NCBI GenBank assembly: GCA_018648645.1
Contig: JABGQS010000019.1
Location: 1 to 47,682 of the forward strand
Reading direction: 5' to 3'
DNA: 47,682 bases
From: Clostridia bacterium
Lineage (GTDB): Bacteria > Bacillota > Clostridia > Christensenellales > SZUA-584
Below the pieces are notes generated by a model. It saw only the letters and a program-made list of their open reading frames with translations, made no database searches and had not been told where the DNA came from. Positions 24,408-47,553 of this stretch are shown here, piece after piece (positions within the stretch are counted from its first letter, which is position 1; the number at the start of each line of letters is the position of its first letter). A program made the translations under genes and the position numbers.

Positions 24408-25283
24408 TTAATTTTCAATGTTTTTTTGAATATTCACGATTTCTTCACTAATTCGCGCAAAATCATTGACATTCAGCGTTTCCGCTCTTGCGTTTTCATC
24501 AATTTGCGCCTTTTGTATTATAGCATTCGCTTGGCCTATCGTCAGCTCAAAACTTTGCCGCAAATTGCTTCTCACAGTTTTGCGCCGTTTAGCGAACAGC
24601 CCCCTAACGGTTTTGCTATATTGCTCCGCTTTTTCCGCGTCATACTGCTTCATCTCAATGCTGAGCACAGCCGAGTACACATCCGGCTTTGGATAAAAGC
24701 AGCTCGGTGACACACTAAACAGCATCTTCGCATCCGCAAAGAACCCAATCGCAGCACTGATGCTGCCATACTCTTTGCTTCCCGGCATCGCGCAAATCCG
24801 CTGCGCCACTTCCTTTTGTATCATCACGGTAATGCGCTTAATGTTCAACCCCGACTCAACTAGTTTCATGATGCACGGCGAGGTAATATAATACGGCAGA
24901 TTCGCAGCCACATAAATGTCCGCTTCGCCAAATATCGGCGTAAGCTCTTTCTCCAAATCAGCCTTCAGAAAATCCTGGTGAAACAGCGAAAAATTCTCCA
25001 CTCCCTCAAACGTATCTTTAAGCGAGCGCACCAGACCCGCGTCAATCTCATATGCCGCTACTTGCGCTGCCCGGGTGGTCAGCCTTTGCGTCAACCCGCC
25101 AAGCCCCGGACCAACCTCAATAACCGCCGCGTTCCCTGCATCCTGCGGCAGAGCGGCGTTTGCAATCTTGTCGGCAATATTACCGTCCACAAGAAAGTTC
25201 TGTCCAAATTTTTTAAGCGGCGCAATGCCATAGCTGCTCATAAGCTCTCTGGCCACTTTGGGTGACGTAATATTTATACTCAT
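24408..25283 (-). CDS. rsmA: 16S rRNA dimethyladenosine transferase RsmA/KsgA
   Basis: This 291-residue methyltransferase dimethylates two adjacent adenines near the 3' end of 16S rRNA. The motifs are in order: KKFGQNFLVDGNIADKI, the SAM-binding EVGPGLGGLT, and NLPYYITSP, the catalytic NLPY. The C-terminal helical domain contains LFAKRRKTVRSNLRQ. The start follows GAGGA at 4 bases. It lies 30 bases after a GNAT gene, probably in one transcript. Confidence 0.95.
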   Translation of the reverse strand: MSINITSPKVARELMSSYGIAPLKKFGQNFLVDGNIADKIANAALPQDAGNAAVIEVGPGLGGLTQRLTTRAAQVAAYEIDAGLVRSLKDTFEGVENFSLFHQDFLKADLEKELTPIFGEADIYVAANLPYYITSPCIMKLVESGLNIKRITVMIQKEVAQRICAMPGSKEYGSISAAIGFFADAKMLFSVSPSCFYPKPDVYSAVLSIEMKQYDAEKAEQYSKTVRGLFAKRRKTVRSNLRQSFELTIGQANAIIQKAQIDENARAETLNVNDFARISEEIVNIQKNIEN

Positions 25284-26263: not shown

Positions 26264-27580
26264 TCACAACAGCTCGAGTAAATTGCCCGCCACGCTCTTG
26301 ATTCGCTCGCACGAGTCCGTCTCAAACTGCGACCCCGCGCCAATCCTCGTCTCATACCCGCCCTCAAGAAACGCTTTCTCGTCGGGTATATAGCCGCTGC
26401 TGCCAAGCGTCAGCCCCATAACAGCCGTTTTCTCGTGTGGCGAGTTTCGCTTTATATCGAGCGCAACGCTGCTGAATATCTCGCCCGGCAGCGACACAAA
26501 CGCCATATCGCCCAGCTTCACAGCCGCCATCGGGAAAATATACTTGTCGCCCTGCTGCGATTCCATCGCGATTATCTCTTTTGCGTAAAACTCGCTCGGG
26601 ATGCCGTGCAGCAACTCTGGAATCTCTCCCTTGCAATGCGCCCACTTCGCCTTCGCCCATTTGGTCCACTCCCGCGGTATAGTCCTCTTATACAGCGCAA
26701 CCGCGCCGCCCGCTACCTTTAGTTTGTCCTCCGCCTTGCAAGAGCCGTCAATCGCGCTCACTACATGCTTAGCCAGCGCATATCCATATCTTTCCGCCTC
26801 AGGAAACGCATCCAAACAAAACTTCTCAAAGTTGAGATGGTTCACATCGCCCTGCGCACCGTTGATAAAATGTACAATTGGTTTTTCGGCGTAAGTGTTC
26901 CGCAAAGACTCACGCAAATAATGCACCCAATCCGCAGACCACAGCCAATCGCGCCCCACACAAATTGCAGGATGCAGCGCGAAGTTCACCATAATTGTCT
27001 GCCACGTCCCGTCCGCTCGTTTAAACCCAACAACGCTCATCTGCTTGTCCGGCTTGCCCGTCGCGCATACAACGTCCGTCGGGTCAACCTCGTTCCAGTT
27101 CATGACCACTTTGCCGTCCGCCATCCTTAGGCGTCTACAAAAGCTAAGCCCTTCCACGTGGGTTTGCGCGCTCCATAGGCTGACCTGCTCCATCGCATCC
27201 GGCAGCTGTGCAACAGCCTGCGCTATTTTACCTGTAGAATCAAGTATGTAATCGCGCACCTTATCGCTTTCCTTGGCATCGTCCATCATCTCTATCGTGT
27301 AAGGTCCCGAGTGCGTATGCGTCGCAGAAACAATAACGTTCTCGCTCGGAATGTTAAGCTCGTCCGCCATACGTTCACGGATAGCTTTTGCGTCTTTCAC
27401 CTCGATACCCGCCCAGTCCATAACGAGGAATAAAACGGTGGTTTCCTCATGCTCGCACAATATCGCGTTGCAAACAAGCGGATCATGCACCCCTCTGCTG
27501 ATATTGTCTTTGCGGATATTACCGCATATCGCCATCCCAATCGGCGGTGTAATCTCTATCATGGTCGATGCAGATTTCAT
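26264..27580 (-). CDS. Neutral/alkaline ceramidase-like protein, downstream paralog
   Basis: This 438-residue protein resembles the N-terminal catalytic domain of neutral/alkaline non-lysosomal ceramidases. It begins MIEITPPIGMAICGN and has the metal-binding motif SATHTHSGP (His88, His90), plus HPAICVGRDWLWSADW and FINGAQGDVN. No signal peptide is visible, so it acts in the cytoplasm, unlike secreted ceramidases, and the eukaryote-like C-terminal domain is absent. The substrate is probably not ceramide but another N-acyl compound. It is the same length as, and colinear with, the gene at 27611-28927, from which it is separated by 30 bases; the two arose by tandem duplication. Confidence 0.82.
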   Translation of the reverse strand: MKSASTMIEITPPIGMAICGNIRKDNISRGVHDPLVCNAILCEHEETTVLFLVMDWAGIEVKDAKAIRERMADELNIPSENVIVSATHTHSGPYTIEMMDDAKESDKVRDYILDSTGKIAQAVAQLPDAMEQVSLWSAQTHVEGLSFCRRLRMADGKVVMNWNEVDPTDVVCATGKPDKQMSVVGFKRADGTWQTIMVNFALHPAICVGRDWLWSADWVHYLRESLRNTYAEKPIVHFINGAQGDVNHLNFEKFCLDAFPEAERYGYALAKHVVSAIDGSCKAEDKLKVAGGAVALYKRTIPREWTKWAKAKWAHCKGEIPELLHGIPSEFYAKEIIAMESQQGDKYIFPMAAVKLGDMAFVSLPGEIFSSVALDIKRNSPHEKTAVMGLTLGSSGYIPDEKAFLEGGYETRIGAGSQFETDSCERIKSVAGNLLELL

Positions 27581-27610: not shown

Positions 27611-28927
27611 TTATAACAGTTCGAGTAAGTTTTGCGCAACCGATTCTATTTTATCGCAAGAGTCCACCTCGTACCTGCTTCCTCTGCCCGTTCTCTGCTC
27701 ATACCCGCCTTCGGCAAACGCCTTTTTGTCGGGTATATATCCGCAATAGCCCTGCGAGAGCCCCAACATAAACGTTTTGTCAAACGGTGACTTGTCTTTG
27801 ATGTTCAGCCCAATTTGGCTGAATATCTCGCCCGGCAAGGTGACCGCAGCAATGTCGCCGACCCGCACAGCCGTCATGGGATAAATGTCCTTCTCTCCCG
27901 CGAACTGTTCCATGTTGATAATCGCGTGCGCGTAATACTCGCTGGGTATGCCATGCAGAAGCTGCGGTATTTCACCACCACATGCCTCCCACTTCGCCTT
28001 TGCCCACTGCGACCACTCCTGCGTAATCTCTCTGCGATACATAGCAACTGCGCCGGTAACACAGTTCAGCTTGTCGCTCATCTGCTCGGCATCACCCAGT
28101 ATCTCCATCGCGTGGTCAGCAAGCTCCCTTCCGTATCTCTGCGCCTCCGGGAACGCCTCCAGGTTAAAATTCTCATAATCGAGCGCGTTCACATCGCCCT
28201 CTGCGCCGTTGCTGAAATGCACAACCGGCTTTTCGGGCAGCGCCTCCCATATCCTCTCGCGCAGATAGTTCACATAATCCGCAGACCACAGCCAATCGCG
28301 CCCAACGCAAATCGCCGCGTGCAGCGTAAAGTTGACCATCAGCGTCTGCCAAGTATTATCCGCGCGCTTCATACCAACCACGCTCATCTGCTTGTCGGGG
28401 TCTCCCGTCGCACAAACAACGTCGGTAGGGTCAACCTCTATCCAGTTCATAACCACCTTGCCGTCCGCCATGCGCAATCGCCTGCAAAAGTTGTGCCCTT
28501 CGATATCGGAAACTGCGCCCCAAAGGCTCACTTCCTCAAGCTCACCGGGCAGGCTTTTTACGCCCTCCACAATATCGTCAAACGCCTTGTTTAAATACTT
28601 TTCCTCTTCATCGTTTCGGTAATCAAACCCCGACCGCGTGATAATCTTCGGTCCCGAGTGCGTGTGCGTAGCCGACACTACCACATTTTTCTTAAGGATC
28701 CCGACCACCGCGCCTGCACGTTTTCGCAGAATCGTGGCTTCAGCTTCGTCAACACCCACCCAATCCAGCACCAGAAACAGCACGCTGGTCTCCTCGCTTT
28801 CCATCAGCACTGCGTTGCACAGCAGCGGATCGTGCGTACCTCTTGCCAAGTCGTCGTCCCGCACATTCCCGCAAATTGATATCCCTATCGGCGGTGTAAT
28901 GTCAATCATAGCAGACGCTGATTTCAT
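27611..28927 (-). CDS. Neutral/alkaline ceramidase-like protein, upstream paralog
   Basis: This 438-residue protein is the paralog of its downstream neighbour and has the same length and motif positions (MIDITPPIGISICGN, SATHTHSGP with His88 and His90, FSNGAEGDVN). By eye about 60 percent of the first 70 residues agree. The start follows AAGGAG at 8 bases, and a sigma-A promoter lies at 28997-29025, so this is the first gene of the pair. It has no export signal. Divergence of the two copies suggests different substrates or a hetero-oligomer; neither can be decided from sequence. Confidence 0.82.
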   Translation of the reverse strand: MKSASAMIDITPPIGISICGNVRDDDLARGTHDPLLCNAVLMESEETSVLFLVLDWVGVDEAEATILRKRAGAVVGILKKNVVVSATHTHSGPKIITRSGFDYRNDEEEKYLNKAFDDIVEGVKSLPGELEEVSLWGAVSDIEGHNFCRRLRMADGKVVMNWIEVDPTDVVCATGDPDKQMSVVGMKRADNTWQTLMVNFTLHAAICVGRDWLWSADYVNYLRERIWEALPEKPVVHFSNGAEGDVNALDYENFNLEAFPEAQRYGRELADHAMEILGDAEQMSDKLNCVTGAVAMYRREITQEWSQWAKAKWEACGGEIPQLLHGIPSEYYAHAIINMEQFAGEKDIYPMTAVRVGDIAAVTLPGEIFSQIGLNIKDKSPFDKTFMLGLSQGYCGYIPDKKAFAEGGYEQRTGRGSRYEVDSCDKIESVAQNLLELL

Positions 28928-29025: not shown

Positions 29026-29187
29026 GCCTTTGCACTAAGCATATCGGCACTATTTATGATAATTGGCAACGACACACAAATCCCCTGCGCACATCGCAAG
29101 AAACACCACCAAATATGGCGAAATGCCCTAATATTTGTAGTATTCTTTACGAATAGTTCTTTTTTATTACTTATTTGTTACAAATGT

Positions 29188-29216
29188 TTGACAAAGCGAG
29201 GAATGTGTTGTATAAT
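29188..29216 (+). promoter_or_regulatory. Perfect consensus sigma-A promoter of an orphan small RNA
   Basis: TTGACA and TATAAT are separated by exactly 17 bases. No gene follows on this strand. Confidence 0.85.
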
Positions 29217-29221
29217 GACCA

Positions 29222-29309
29222 TGGTTTCAAGAAAACCACTTAAACAGCCACCACTACCAATAATATATTTAGCAAAAAGGCCTTTGCGATTTCTCGCAAG
29301 GACCTTTTT
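29222..29309 (+). ncRNA. Candidate small RNA of about 88 nt, family not recognised
   Basis: A transcript from the perfect promoter at 29188-29216 would start near 29222 and end at the strong terminator at 29274-29309. It would begin with a small hairpin (GGTTT with AAACC), continue through about 35 bases of C- and A-rich single-stranded sequence with two ACCAC/CCACC runs, and finish with the terminator stem. The only frame through it has no stop before the terminator, so it is not a peptide gene. I do not recognise it as 6S, SRP or tmRNA. It faces the reverse rubrerythrin gene tail to tail and shares the terminator region with it. Confidence 0.6.
29274..29309. terminator. Bidirectional terminator of the small RNA and reverse rubrerythrin
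   Basis: A stem of about 15 bp with one mismatch and one G-U pair (AAAAAGG outer arm, TTTC loop) gives five T residues on each strand. Confidence 0.88.
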
Positions 29310-29377
29310 GCATATGAGTATATTTGGTATGAGTTTTAGAGTATATATGTATCAAATATTAAAATCATTATTGTTTT

Positions 29378-29920
29378 TTAGAAATATCTCTTCAGCAATC
29401 CGGCAAACGCTTTTCCATGACGGGCTTCGTCTCTAGCCATTTCGTGAACGGTGTCGTGTATTGCATCCAAGTTCTGCGCCTTGGCCAACTTAGCAATTTC
29501 AAACTTGCCTGCTGTTGCGCCATACTCCGCTTCCACTCTTGCTTCAAGATTCGCCTTCGTGTCCGCTTTTAGAACTTCGCCCAGCATCTCGCCAAATCTT
29601 GATGCATGCTCTGCTTCTTCGTATGCAATGCGCTTATACGCTTCAGCAATCTCGGGATACCCTTCTCTGTCCGCTTGACGGCTCATTGCAAGATACATGC
29701 CAACTTCTGTGCATTCTCCGGCAAAATTGTTTTTGAGTCCCTCAACGATTACAGGATCTACTCCATCAACGATACCAATCGTATGCTCTGCGGCCCAAGT
29801 CTTTTCAGCTCCGCCCATTTCCTTAAACTTCTCTTTTACCGCGCCACATTGTGGGCATTTGTCTGGTGCCGAGTCTCCTTCATGAACATAGCCACAAACC
29901 GAACAACTAAACTTCTTCAT
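29378..29920 (-). CDS. Reverse rubrerythrin (rubredoxin domain first)
   Basis: This 180-residue protein has a rubredoxin-like iron site at the N-terminus (Cys6-x2-Cys9, Cys22-x2-Cys25) followed by a ferritin-like four-helix diiron domain with Glu ligands in [21 protein letters not shown] and ARDEARHG. In classical rubrerythrin the order is the opposite. Reverse rubrerythrins of clostridia reduce hydrogen peroxide and oxygen with electrons from NADH via rubredoxin. The start follows AGAGGT at 6 bases. The gene lies 51 bases downstream of perR and should be in its transcript, so it is probably derepressed by peroxide. Confidence 0.93.
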
Positions 29921-29971: not shown

Positions 29972-30361
29972 CTAATTAACTTTGCTCTCACATTTGCTGC
30001 ATTTGCCGTAGCACACCAGCGAGTGCGAGCTCACGTTAGCATCTAAATCGCTTACCAGCTTATTAAGCCGCTCATCCGCCCGGTTGTCGTGCACATCGCT
30101 AACGCTGTTGCAGCTTTTGCAATAGTAGTGGATGTGCGGCTCTGTTGTCGCATCATACCGCTCCTCCGCGTCACCGCACGATATCTTTTGGATGAACCCC
30201 TGCGCTTCCAGTACGCTTAGGTTCCGGTACACAGTTCCCAGACTTATGCTCGGTATTACACTTCGCACTTCGTCATATATAGAGCTTGCTGTCGGGTGCG
30301 CTGTTGTCGATTGCACAACCTCAAGTATTCTATTTCTCTGTTCCGTGTTCCTGTAATTCAT
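29972..30361 (-). CDS. perR: PerR-like Fur-family peroxide regulator
   Basis: This 129-residue repressor has the Fur-family winged helix (HPTASSIYDEVRSVIPSISL, recognition helix LGTVYRNLSVL) and a C-terminal metal domain with HIHYYCKSCNS and a final CSKCES pair, the structural zinc site. The short length, the anaerobe context and the downstream reverse rubrerythrin favour PerR over Fur or Zur. A near-palindrome covers its transcription start (30374-30394), so it probably controls itself and the rubrerythrin gene. Confidence 0.88.
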   Translation of the reverse strand: MNYRNTEQRNRILEVVQSTTAHPTASSIYDEVRSVIPSISLGTVYRNLSVLEAQGFIQKISCGDAEERYDATTEPHIHYYCKSCNSVSDVHDNRADERLNKLVSDLDANVSSHSLVCYGKCSKCESKVN

Positions 30362-30492: not shown

Positions 30493-32490
30493 TTATCCGC
30501 CAATCGGGGGTTCCTCCCCGACAATCTTGCCTTCCGGCGTGATGGTCTTTGCCCTCTCGTCCGGTTTCTCTTCGTCCGATTTCTCGTCTTCAGACTTCTC
30601 CGGCTCCTCGCTCTGCTCCGGCTCTGCCACAACAATCGGCGGCAGCTCCTCGCCGTTAAACAGCATTTCAAACTCGTCGCCGTCGATGCGCTCGCGCTCT
30701 ATAAGCACGGCAGTAATGCTGTGCAGCAGTTCCTCGTTGTCCTTGAGTATACTCTGCGCCTTTTTATACGCTTCATCAAGGATACGCTTAACCTCTTCGT
30801 CAATCTTGAATGCAAGCTCGTCGCTATAATCTTTGGTATGTCCAATCTCTTTTCCAAGGAACAGCTCCTGACTGCCGCCAAGGAACATCAACCCCACCTC
30901 TTCGCTCATCCCGTATTTTACAACCATGTTTCTGGCAATTTCGGTAGCGCGCTGAAGATCGCTAATCGCACCCGTGCTGATGTCGCCAAGCACAAGCGCT
31001 TCTGCTGCTCTGCCACCAAGCGTCATTGCGATATCGCTGAGCAGCTTGCTTTTGAACACATGCATATCGTCTTCGTCGGGCAGCGTCAGGGTATATCCGG
31101 CCGCCATACCGCGCGGTATAATCGAAACCTCGTGCACCGCGTCGCAGTCCGGCAGCGCCTTTGCGCAAATCGCGTGCCCCACCTCGTGATACGCTGTGCA
31201 TCTCTTGTCCTTGTCGGTAATAACACGGCTCTTCTTTTGCGGCCCTGCAATCACGCGCGTAATCGCTTCTTCAATTTCAATCATGCCGATCTTAAGTTTC
31301 TTCGCTCTGGCAGTTAAAATCGCGGCTTCATTAAGCACGTTCTCTAAATCCGCACCGATGAACCCCGGTGTACGCTTTGCCAGAACATCCAGCTTCACGT
31401 CGTCCGCAAACGGTTTGCCTTTGCTGTGAACTTTGAGAATCTCTTCTCTGCCCTTCACGTCAGGGAAGCTGACATATATCTGTCTGTCAAACCTGCCCGG
31501 ACGTAGAAGCGCCGGGTCTAATATATCTTTTCTGTTGGTTGCCGCGAGAATAATGATTCCTTCGTTCACTTGGAACCCGTCCATCTCCACAAGCAGCTGG
31601 TTTAGCGTCTGCTCACGCTCGTCATGACCGCCGCCCATGCCGCTGCCTCTCTGGCGTCCAACAGCATCAATTTCATCTATAAATATTATGCATGGCGAGT
31701 TCTTCTTTGCGTTCTCAAACATATCACGCACTCGCGACGCACCAACACCTACGAACATCTCAACGAAGTCACTGCCGCTGATCGAGAAGAACGGTACGCC
31801 CGCTTCCCCTGCAACCGCCTTCGCCAGCAGCGTTTTGCCGCCGCCCGGAGGTCCCACTAGCAGCACACCTTTTGGTATGCGCGCTCCCAGATCAATAAAG
31901 CGCTTAGGGTTCTTTAAAAATTCAACAACCTCTGCAAGCTCTTCCTTCTCTTCGTCCGCGCCCGCAACGTCTGCAAACGTCTTTTTGTTTTTAGTGCTAA
32001 CCTGCATACGAGCTCGCGATTTGCCAAACGACATCGCTTTGTTGCCGCTGCCCTGCTGCTGACGCATAATGTACACAAAAACAATTATAATAAGCCCAAC
32101 GGGCAAGAGTATCGGCCAAATCTGTGACAGGAACGAAGGCTCCGGGGCCGGAGAATACTTAATTGGTATACCGTAACCCGCAGTATCTGTGCCGCCCGTT
32201 CTGCTTTCCATATCTGCGTTAAACTGCTCAAAATCCGGAACGTATGTATAATAGTCATACTCTTTGGGGAACTTTTCAATGTCGATCTCTGTTCCAGACT
32301 TTATTGCATACAAACCTTTATCAATAAACTCAATTTGAGTAATTTGGCCGGCTTCAACCTCTCTCATAAACGAGTCGTAATCAATCTCGCTTTCATCCGG
32401 TCCTGTATCAGCTGTAAGCCAAAAGATCAGTAAAAAAACAATAACGATTCCAAATATATATATCAGCGGTCCGCGTGCTGATTTCTTCAA
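30493..32490 (-). CDS. ftsH: ATP-dependent zinc metalloprotease FtsH
   Basis: This 665-residue membrane AAA+ protease degrades misfolded membrane proteins and short-lived regulators. It has two membrane segments (about 8-26 and 124-142) around an extracellular loop, a Walker A motif GPPGGGKT at 213-220, IIFIDEIDA, the arginine-finger region RPGRFDRQ, and the zinc site HEVGH. The usual reading is HEAGH; the zinc-binding pattern H-E-x-x-H is kept. The C-terminus ends in an acidic, proline-rich tail of about 50 residues. The TTG start follows GGAGGG at 7 bases. The tilS-hpt-ftsH order is typical of Bacillota. Confidence 0.96.
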
Positions 32491-40654: not shown

Positions 40655-41222
40655 TATTATGCCCTCCTAAAAGCCTTGCATATTATAGCACAATACAGCC
40701 AATAAACAGAGCTTTTTTTAACATCGCCCATCCGGCTGCGAAATATCGCTCAATCCCGCCCCATGCCGCCGTAGTGCCAAAAATGTATATTCGCCCCGGC
40801 TAATCGCATATCGGCTCTCTGCACCGGCGCGCTTTTGCCCATTTTTATCGCGCTCATGAATATTTATCATACGAATTAGAATAATTATATTTTAATCAAT
40901 ATTGACGCGACTTTGAAAAACAGGTTTTTTACTTATTATTTTGCATATTTTACGGGGTGATATACATAAAGTTGTCCACTTTATCCACATTGTTGTCCAC
41001 AAGTGCCGAAAAACCGAGCATATGCGCAAAAAACGGAGTTGTGCAAATTCCTGCTAAAAAAATAAAATGAATAAATAAAAATTGTTACGTTTATGTAATG
41101 TTTCGTTATGTATAAATATTCATTTTATCAGTTTCCTGCGTTTCAAAAAGTCTTGCACTTGTGATATACTGATATTAGATAAAACAGCCCGAAAACACGC
41201 GCAAACAGAAAGTGACCTGAGT
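40655..41222. other. AT-rich intergenic region with DnaA boxes
   Basis: This gap of about 570 bases holds the MFS ribosome-binding site at its left edge, a GC-richer stretch at about 40735-40855, then very AT-rich sequence on both sides of a DnaA-box cluster (about 40856-40960 and 41050-41130). A -10-like TATACT near 41167 may serve the small gene at 41223. I see no RNA gene. Confidence 0.6.
40972..41001 (+). promoter_or_regulatory. Cluster of three same-direction DnaA boxes
   Basis: The nonamers TTGTCCACT (40972-40980), TTATCCACA (40981-40989, perfect consensus) and TTGTCCACA (40993-41001) follow each other almost without gaps. AT-rich sequence flanks them on both sides. This is the layout of a replication origin or of a DnaA-regulated or DnaA-titrating site. 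Confidence 0.75.
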
Positions 41223-47195: not shown

Positions 47196-47288
47196 ACTCG
47201 CCGATAATGGCAAACCCGACCGAAAGGCGGGGACGCAAAGCTAGAGGTCTAAATCGAAGAGGCTTTCGACATGACAGCTCGGCCGCCG
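47196..47288 (+). ncRNA. Cyclic di-GMP-I (GEMM) riboswitch aptamer
   Basis: The class signatures GGCAAACC (47209) and GGACGCAAAGC (47231) flank a P2 helix capped by a GAAA tetraloop (CCCG-A-CC with GG-CGGG). The second arm is closed by AGCT/AGCT, carries a receptor-like CTAA/CATG pair of strands, and has a TCGAAG/TTTCGA end helix. GCCG/CGGC can close the basal stem. It binds c-di-GMP, or possibly cyclic GMP-AMP, which some GEMM-I members bind. It points away from rho; no gene follows in the window. Confidence 0.9.
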
Positions 47289-47553
47289 AAGATGAGGAGT
47301 TTTTTTCTCTCCCTTTGGCACCAAACATGCGCCGTACCCTGATTTGCAGGGTAGAAAATATGGGGAGGGATCCAATACACACACAACGTTCACGCCAACA
47401 TACACACTACTCGAAGGCACTTGTGCCCTCGAACTCACACTAAAATTTACAGAAAAGATTATACCACGGTTTATAAGCTGATTTACGCTTTATTTAAAGA
47501 ATTAAAACAGCAACGCCGTCCCCAGCATAAATGTTTTCAGCCGAAAAGGCGAA
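47289..47553 (+). other. Structured leader after the riboswitch, without a gene
   Basis: This stretch has a T-run at 47300-47306 and a possible three-way junction at about 47307-47369 (CTCCC with GGGAG enclosing a GGC/GCC hairpin and ACCCT/AGGGT). A further hairpin lies at 47411-47432 (TCGA and GGCAC arms). I see no reading frame with a ribosome-binding site. Confidence 0.45.

Follow-up and report, generated by a model that had tools for sequence, protein, structure and literature searches.

Does a consensus promoter followed by a terminator, with no gene between them, mark a regulatory RNA, and if so, of which kind? We met this question in a 47,682-nt stretch of DNA from a Clostridia bacterium of the order Christensenellales (the window hereafter), where a first-pass annotation had proposed an orphan small RNA (sRNA) next to a peroxide-stress operon. 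Herein, we examine the transcript and its conservation, and afterward move on to its possible mode of action, its gene neighbourhood, its coding potential, and its control. Finally, we describe a second C-rich RNA that came to light in other families of the same order.

Promoter and predicted transcript

The promoter at 29188–29216 agrees with the consensus in all 12 positions, as had been claimed, and is the sole 12/12 site in the section of the window from 24 to 36 kb. The accompanying remark that perfect promoters are rare was overstated, as a 431-kb sample of the genome holds 13 of them (spacer 16–18), the window included. What is unusual is that the promoter is perfect in all five examined genomes of the window's family, with 17 bases between the two hexamers in each, even though the sequence of the spacer itself has drifted. 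The 5' end of the sRNA would lie 6–8 nt past the −10 element, and the 3' end within or right after the T-run (Table 1).

The 5' hairpin, the unpaired C/A-rich middle (the linker, 29239–29271), and the strong terminator that had been described are all present in the predicted fold, which has a minimum free energy (MFE) of −28 kcal/mol versus −11.7 ± 2.6 for shuffled sequences (z −6.4); the RNAs of three relatives reach z-scores of −4.7 to −6.9. The A-run of the terminator may make the hairpin usable on the opposite strand as well, and the suggestion that it is shared with the reverse rubrerythrin gene (stop at 29378) is plausible, judging from the A5 and T5 flanks of the hairpin.

Table 1. Positions of the putative sRNA, its parts, and its neighbours in the window
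Feature	Position	Strand	Basis or remark
WalR-box-like half-sites TATTAC-N5-TGTTAC-N5-TTTGAC, 11-bp spacing	29165..29192	+	Reach into the −35 element; position conserved in five genomes
−35 element TTGACA	29188..29193	+	Promoter scan; identical in 5/5 family genomes
−10 element TATAAT	29211..29216	+	Spacer 17; identical in 5/5 family genomes
Putative sRNA, about 88–90 nt	29222..29311	+	Fold; covariance model matches 5/5 family genomes
5' hairpin UGGUUU-CAAGA-AAACCA	29222..29238	+	Predicted fold; compensatory changes among relatives
Unpaired conserved core CCACCACTACCAATAATATATT: proposed seed and AAUAAU (possible Hfq distal-face) segment	29248..29269	+	Five-genome comparison and predicted folds
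Intrinsic terminator hairpin	29272..29311	+	T-run 29305–29309; A-run 29274–29278
rsmA (ksgA), conserved divergent neighbour	24408..25283	−	Parted from the sRNA by inserted genes in the window
Rubrerythrin gene, convergent neighbour, window only	29378..29920	−	Not beside the sRNA in relatives
Fur-family regulator gene, window only	29972..30361	−	Missing from the relatives' loci
ftsH, conserved neighbour	30493..32490	−	Gene-order comparison

Elsewhere in the window, near the contig end, lies a c-di-GMP-I riboswitch (47199–47290, + strand, 72 bits), with a perfect promoter on the opposite strand close by (from about 47082).

Conservation in the family

The sRNA sequence is single-copy in its own genome. 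BLASTN found it in three of the four other genomes of the family (G001, G002, and G004), and a covariance model built from these three and the window matched it in the remaining one (G003, E 2e-12). The first-pass annotation had made its orphan sRNA depend on whether close relatives keep the promoter and the hairpins, and 5/5 genomes have both. Pairing in the 5' stem is kept by way of changes between A-U and G-C, between U-A, G-C, and U-G, and between U-A and U-G; these pairs were read from a hand-placed alignment of the five sequences, which is supportive evidence and no formal covariation test. A core of about 22 nt (CACCACCACCACCAATAAT..ATA, in the window CCACCACTACCAATAATATA) is highly conserved and less variable than the first stem. 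It is unpaired in the predicted folds, bar two weak pairings. In G004, the 3' part of the core is predicted to form an A/U stem; in G001, the MFE structure, though not the centroid, pairs the 5' end in an alternative way.

Beyond the family, the exact pattern TATAAT-N18..48-CACCACYAMYAATAATA was scanned across about 85,000 species, yielding 37 matches. Three are family genomes (Christensenellaceae bacterium AS01afH2WH_49, Eubacteriales bacterium STB_2, and Clostridia bacterium SZUA-584). We read the other 34 as chance matches, since they lack a TTGACA-like −35 element and, with one exception, a terminator. A covariance match in G077 proved to be a tRNA-Met gene, a false positive, and Rfam holds no relevant match to the window RNA, either at the gathering score or at E≤5. 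Because the RNA is kept in all five family genomes, we regard it as a real, conserved clostridial sRNA and as a new family, probably of the ordinary, base-pairing regulatory kind.

Possible mode of action

The RNA has its own promoter and an intrinsic terminator, lacks a conserved coding frame, varies in ways that preserve its structure, and keeps a conserved stretch unpaired. These are traits expected of a trans-acting intergenic sRNA. It probably stands alone, depends on sigma-A, and uses its CACC repeat as a seed, possibly together with Hfq, a reading to which we give a probability of about two in three. Sigma-A transcription from the perfect promoter would give an RNA of about 88 nt, and its CACC repeat would pair with GGUG-type sites in mRNAs, resulting in a translation block or a change in stability. 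The AAUAAU segment and the U-tail may bind Hfq; an hfq gene is present in the genome (E 2.8e-31).

The target searches gave no signal that would point to particular mRNAs. Tested against 370 sampled ribosome-binding regions, the linker pairs no better than shuffled linkers (mean −9.05 vs −10.0). The best useful candidate of the sample, ispG (−24.1 kcal/mol), was discarded: its site is absent in relatives, and shuffled linkers reach similar energies. No long perfect antisense complement is common to the five family genomes, and the matches stay at control level. The organism usually has AGGAGG as its Shine–Dalgarno (SD) sequence rather than GGUGG, and the CACC repeat is therefore no general anti-SD element; with the linker pairing no better than its shuffles, a general sequestration of SD sequences by the window RNA is not supported.

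The missing mRNA signal and the short tandem repeat within the unpaired linker would also suit a protein-binding or sponge RNA, whose repeat titrates a protein or another RNA instead of pairing with mRNAs. No partner is known, however, and the architecture is the same as that of ordinary base-pairing sRNAs, so we consider this unlikely.

Comparison with known small RNAs

Well-studied sRNAs offer a precedent for pairing through a C-rich seed, as both RoxS/RsaE (PMC5419742) and IsrR (PMC9410917) bind G-rich sites of their targets through single-stranded stretches rich in C. Like RoxS/RsaE of Bacillus and Staphylococcus, the window RNA is small and stands alone, with unpaired C-rich sequence for pairing. 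Those RNAs have several C-rich regions, whereas the window RNA has one CACC repeat, no clear Rex site, and a different neighbourhood. It is not matched by the RoxS/RsaE family of Rfam at the gathering score, and even up to E 5 neither L022 nor L026 gives a match. The sequence TTGTTA-N8-TGACAA at the sRNA promoter, from which G001 and G003 deviate, was considered as a possible Rex operator, but its spacing appears to be wrong for one.

With IsrR of Staphylococcus, which is found genus-wide (PMC9410917), the window RNA has in common conserved single-stranded C-rich sequence and an intrinsic terminator. IsrR is 174 nt long, with three stem-loops and Fur boxes. In the window RNA there is a single stem, and no Fur box was recognised, although a fur-family gene lies nearby.

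Gene neighbourhood

Where the contigs allow a comparison, the gene order mnmG-tilS-hpt-ftsH-sRNA-rsmA is kept, with the sRNA convergent with ftsH and divergent from rsmA. The window has extra genes on both sides of the sRNA. On the ftsH side these are fur and the rubrerythrin gene, and on the rsmA side a GNAT gene and two ceramidase-like genes. The latter two are tandem paralogues of 438 aa (26264–27580 and 27611–28927, − strand), present at this place in the window only, and they score just below the Pfam cut-off for Ceramidase_alk.

The expected synteny with reverse rubrerythrin did not hold up, as the relatives have ftsH and rsmA for neighbours and neither rubrerythrin nor fur adjacent to the sRNA. 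The rubrerythrin/fur neighbourhood is thus private to the window, and the proposed link to peroxide stress, which was drawn from the window alone, is therefore not supported. No Fur or PerR box was recognised by eye at the sRNA.

With its bidirectional form and its place between convergent units, the terminator could simply insulate ftsH from rsmA. Promoter and terminator would then be real, and the RNA a by-product of transcription with no regulatory function. Termination alone, however, accounts neither for a core that is better conserved than the stem nor for the compensatory changes in the 5' stem, and we hold this explanation to be quite improbable.

Coding potential

The five family genomes share no reading frame with a common start or an SD sequence, and the RNA is therefore taken to be non-coding. 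The core nonetheless reads CAC CAC CAC CAC CAA TAA (His-His-His-His-Gln-stop) with a terminator after it, as a histidine leader-peptide attenuator, or a relic of one, would; the four relatives have HHHHQ-stop in frame, and the window, in which a His codon has become Tyr, has HHYQ-stop. This frame lacks a start codon in the window and in G004 and an SD sequence in the other genomes. No same-strand gene follows, ftsH or rubrerythrin being convergent, so that a translatable leader open reading frame (ORF) before a same-strand operon, the mark of amino-acid leader-peptide attenuators, is not found here. Nor was any antiterminator pairing seen, and we give an attenuator slightly less credit still than an insulator.

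The earlier description of this interval as having no stop-containing frame and no gene stood up in part. One frame is open across the entire RNA in the window, starting from an ATG at 29221 (MVSRKPLKQPPLPII...). This ATG lies about 5 nt past the −10 element, at or ahead of the start of the RNA, and has no SD sequence. That a small protein is made from it can practically be dismissed, for the frame, which in the window runs through the terminator without a stop, is closed in the relatives (e.g., MVLINH-stop in G002).

A WalR-like box upstream of the promoter

The half-sites upstream of the promoter (Table 1) read TGTTAC-N5-TGTTAC-N5-TTTGAC in G004. They resemble the WalR box, whose consensus is given as TGTWAH-N5-TGTWAH in a study that also describes WalRK as occurring in all Firmicutes (PMC9210968). 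The box at the sRNA promoter scores 12/12 in G004, 11/12 in the window and G002, and 10/12 in G001 and G003. The 11/12 of the window is not significant alone, as 5 of 68 sampled background promoters score as well. The promoters of the WalR regulon and that of the sRNA are alike in the 11-bp-spaced repeats beside them, but the box at the sRNA is perfect in G004 only.

The strict form TGTWAC-N5-TGTWAC is found at just six distinct sites in the five genomes. One is the sRNA promoter of G004; three stand before a Hydrolase_2/PG_binding gene, once each in G002, G003, and G004; one precedes an NlpC/P60/PG_binding gene in the window's genome; and the last, also in G004, falls within a ChW subtilase gene. 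The Hydrolase_2 assignment comes from Pfam for the G003 and G004 copies, and the G002 copy is treated as an orthologue of these because its sequence aligns with theirs. That the strict boxes mostly stand before genes for peptidoglycan hydrolases suggests that the sRNA may be under cell-wall control. An OmpR-family regulator, most likely WalR, would then act at the repeats beside the −35 element. We put forward WalR control of the putative sRNA only tentatively, at well below even odds. An approximate response-regulator query returned two OmpR-type regulators in the genome sample, with partner kinases unlike WalK, and identified no WalR.

Two further observations concern this motif. TGTTAC-N5-TGTTAC precedes NlpC/P60 and Hydrolase_2 peptidoglycan hydrolase genes at G000:C6:68112 (L245) and at L228, L233, and L237. 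Within the window, a match to the WalR consensus (TGTTACGTTTATGTAAT, 41083–41099, + strand) is intergenic, upstream of a possible ORF near 41.2 kb.

A second, order-wide C-rich RNA

Two weak covariance matches in other families (G096 and G020) led us to a wider RNA. Other families of the order have an analogous sRNA with a near-invariant core (GCTCATMATTTTCCCCCTTATCATATA) that is the complement of an SD sequence plus AUG. An unpaired core, GCTCATMATTTTCCCCCTTATCATATAWT, lies between promoter and terminator at L115, L117–L126, L128–L134, and L144–L149 (G011, G020, G040, G055, G096, G274, and others) and is not in Rfam. Among the 297 genomes sampled from the order, 30 match its 17-base heart, compared with one control match; 20 loci were fetched, two of which were judged spurious. 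In a class-wide search, the CCCCC core gave only chance matches without promoter plus terminator outside the order. Within the window's family (G000–G004), the CCCCCTTATCATATAAT core has no match at up to one mismatch.

The complement of the core, GATAAGGGGGAAAATKATGAGC, is an SD sequence with AUG at normal spacing. Two ribosome-binding sites that are full or near-full complements of the core are candidate targets: AAGGGGGAAAATGATGAGC, of a 14-codon ORF after a hairpin (L142, G022:C144:15135-15152), and AAGGGGGAAAAACTATGAGC, of a cytidylate-kinase-like gene (L139, G282:C17:37654-37672).

The order-wide RNA (L115–L134) resembles the window RNA in how its parts follow one another, from a promoter and a 5' hairpin that may be missing to an unpaired C-rich core, an ATCATATA-like segment, and a terminator, and in G003, too, the ATCATATA segment follows the C-rich part. 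It differs in having CCCCC where the window RNA has a CACC repeat, in a complement that spans a full SD sequence plus AUG, and in a locus that is not beside ftsH or rsmA. The two RNAs were never met together in one genome. Given the differing gene neighbourhood, their homology is possible but unproven. Both could belong to a single sRNA of the whole order. In the window's lineage, its seed would have shifted from a general anti-ribosome-binding-site sequence (complement of AAGGGGGAAAAUKAUGAGC) to a CACC repeat, and its promoter would have come under the cell-wall regulator WalR. We find this improbable, about on a par with a sponge; if true, the regulon of peptidoglycan hydrolases would include an sRNA in that lineage.

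Perspective

Neither the literature searched nor Rfam yielded an sRNA of Christensenellales. Genetics is almost lacking in this order, and a conserved sRNA whose candidate seed is defined would offer a handle on post-transcriptional control, and the WalR-like box at its promoter a specific, testable tie to cell-wall remodelling. The order-wide C-rich RNA, whose core is the complement of an entire SD-AUG unit, adds a second candidate RNA family.
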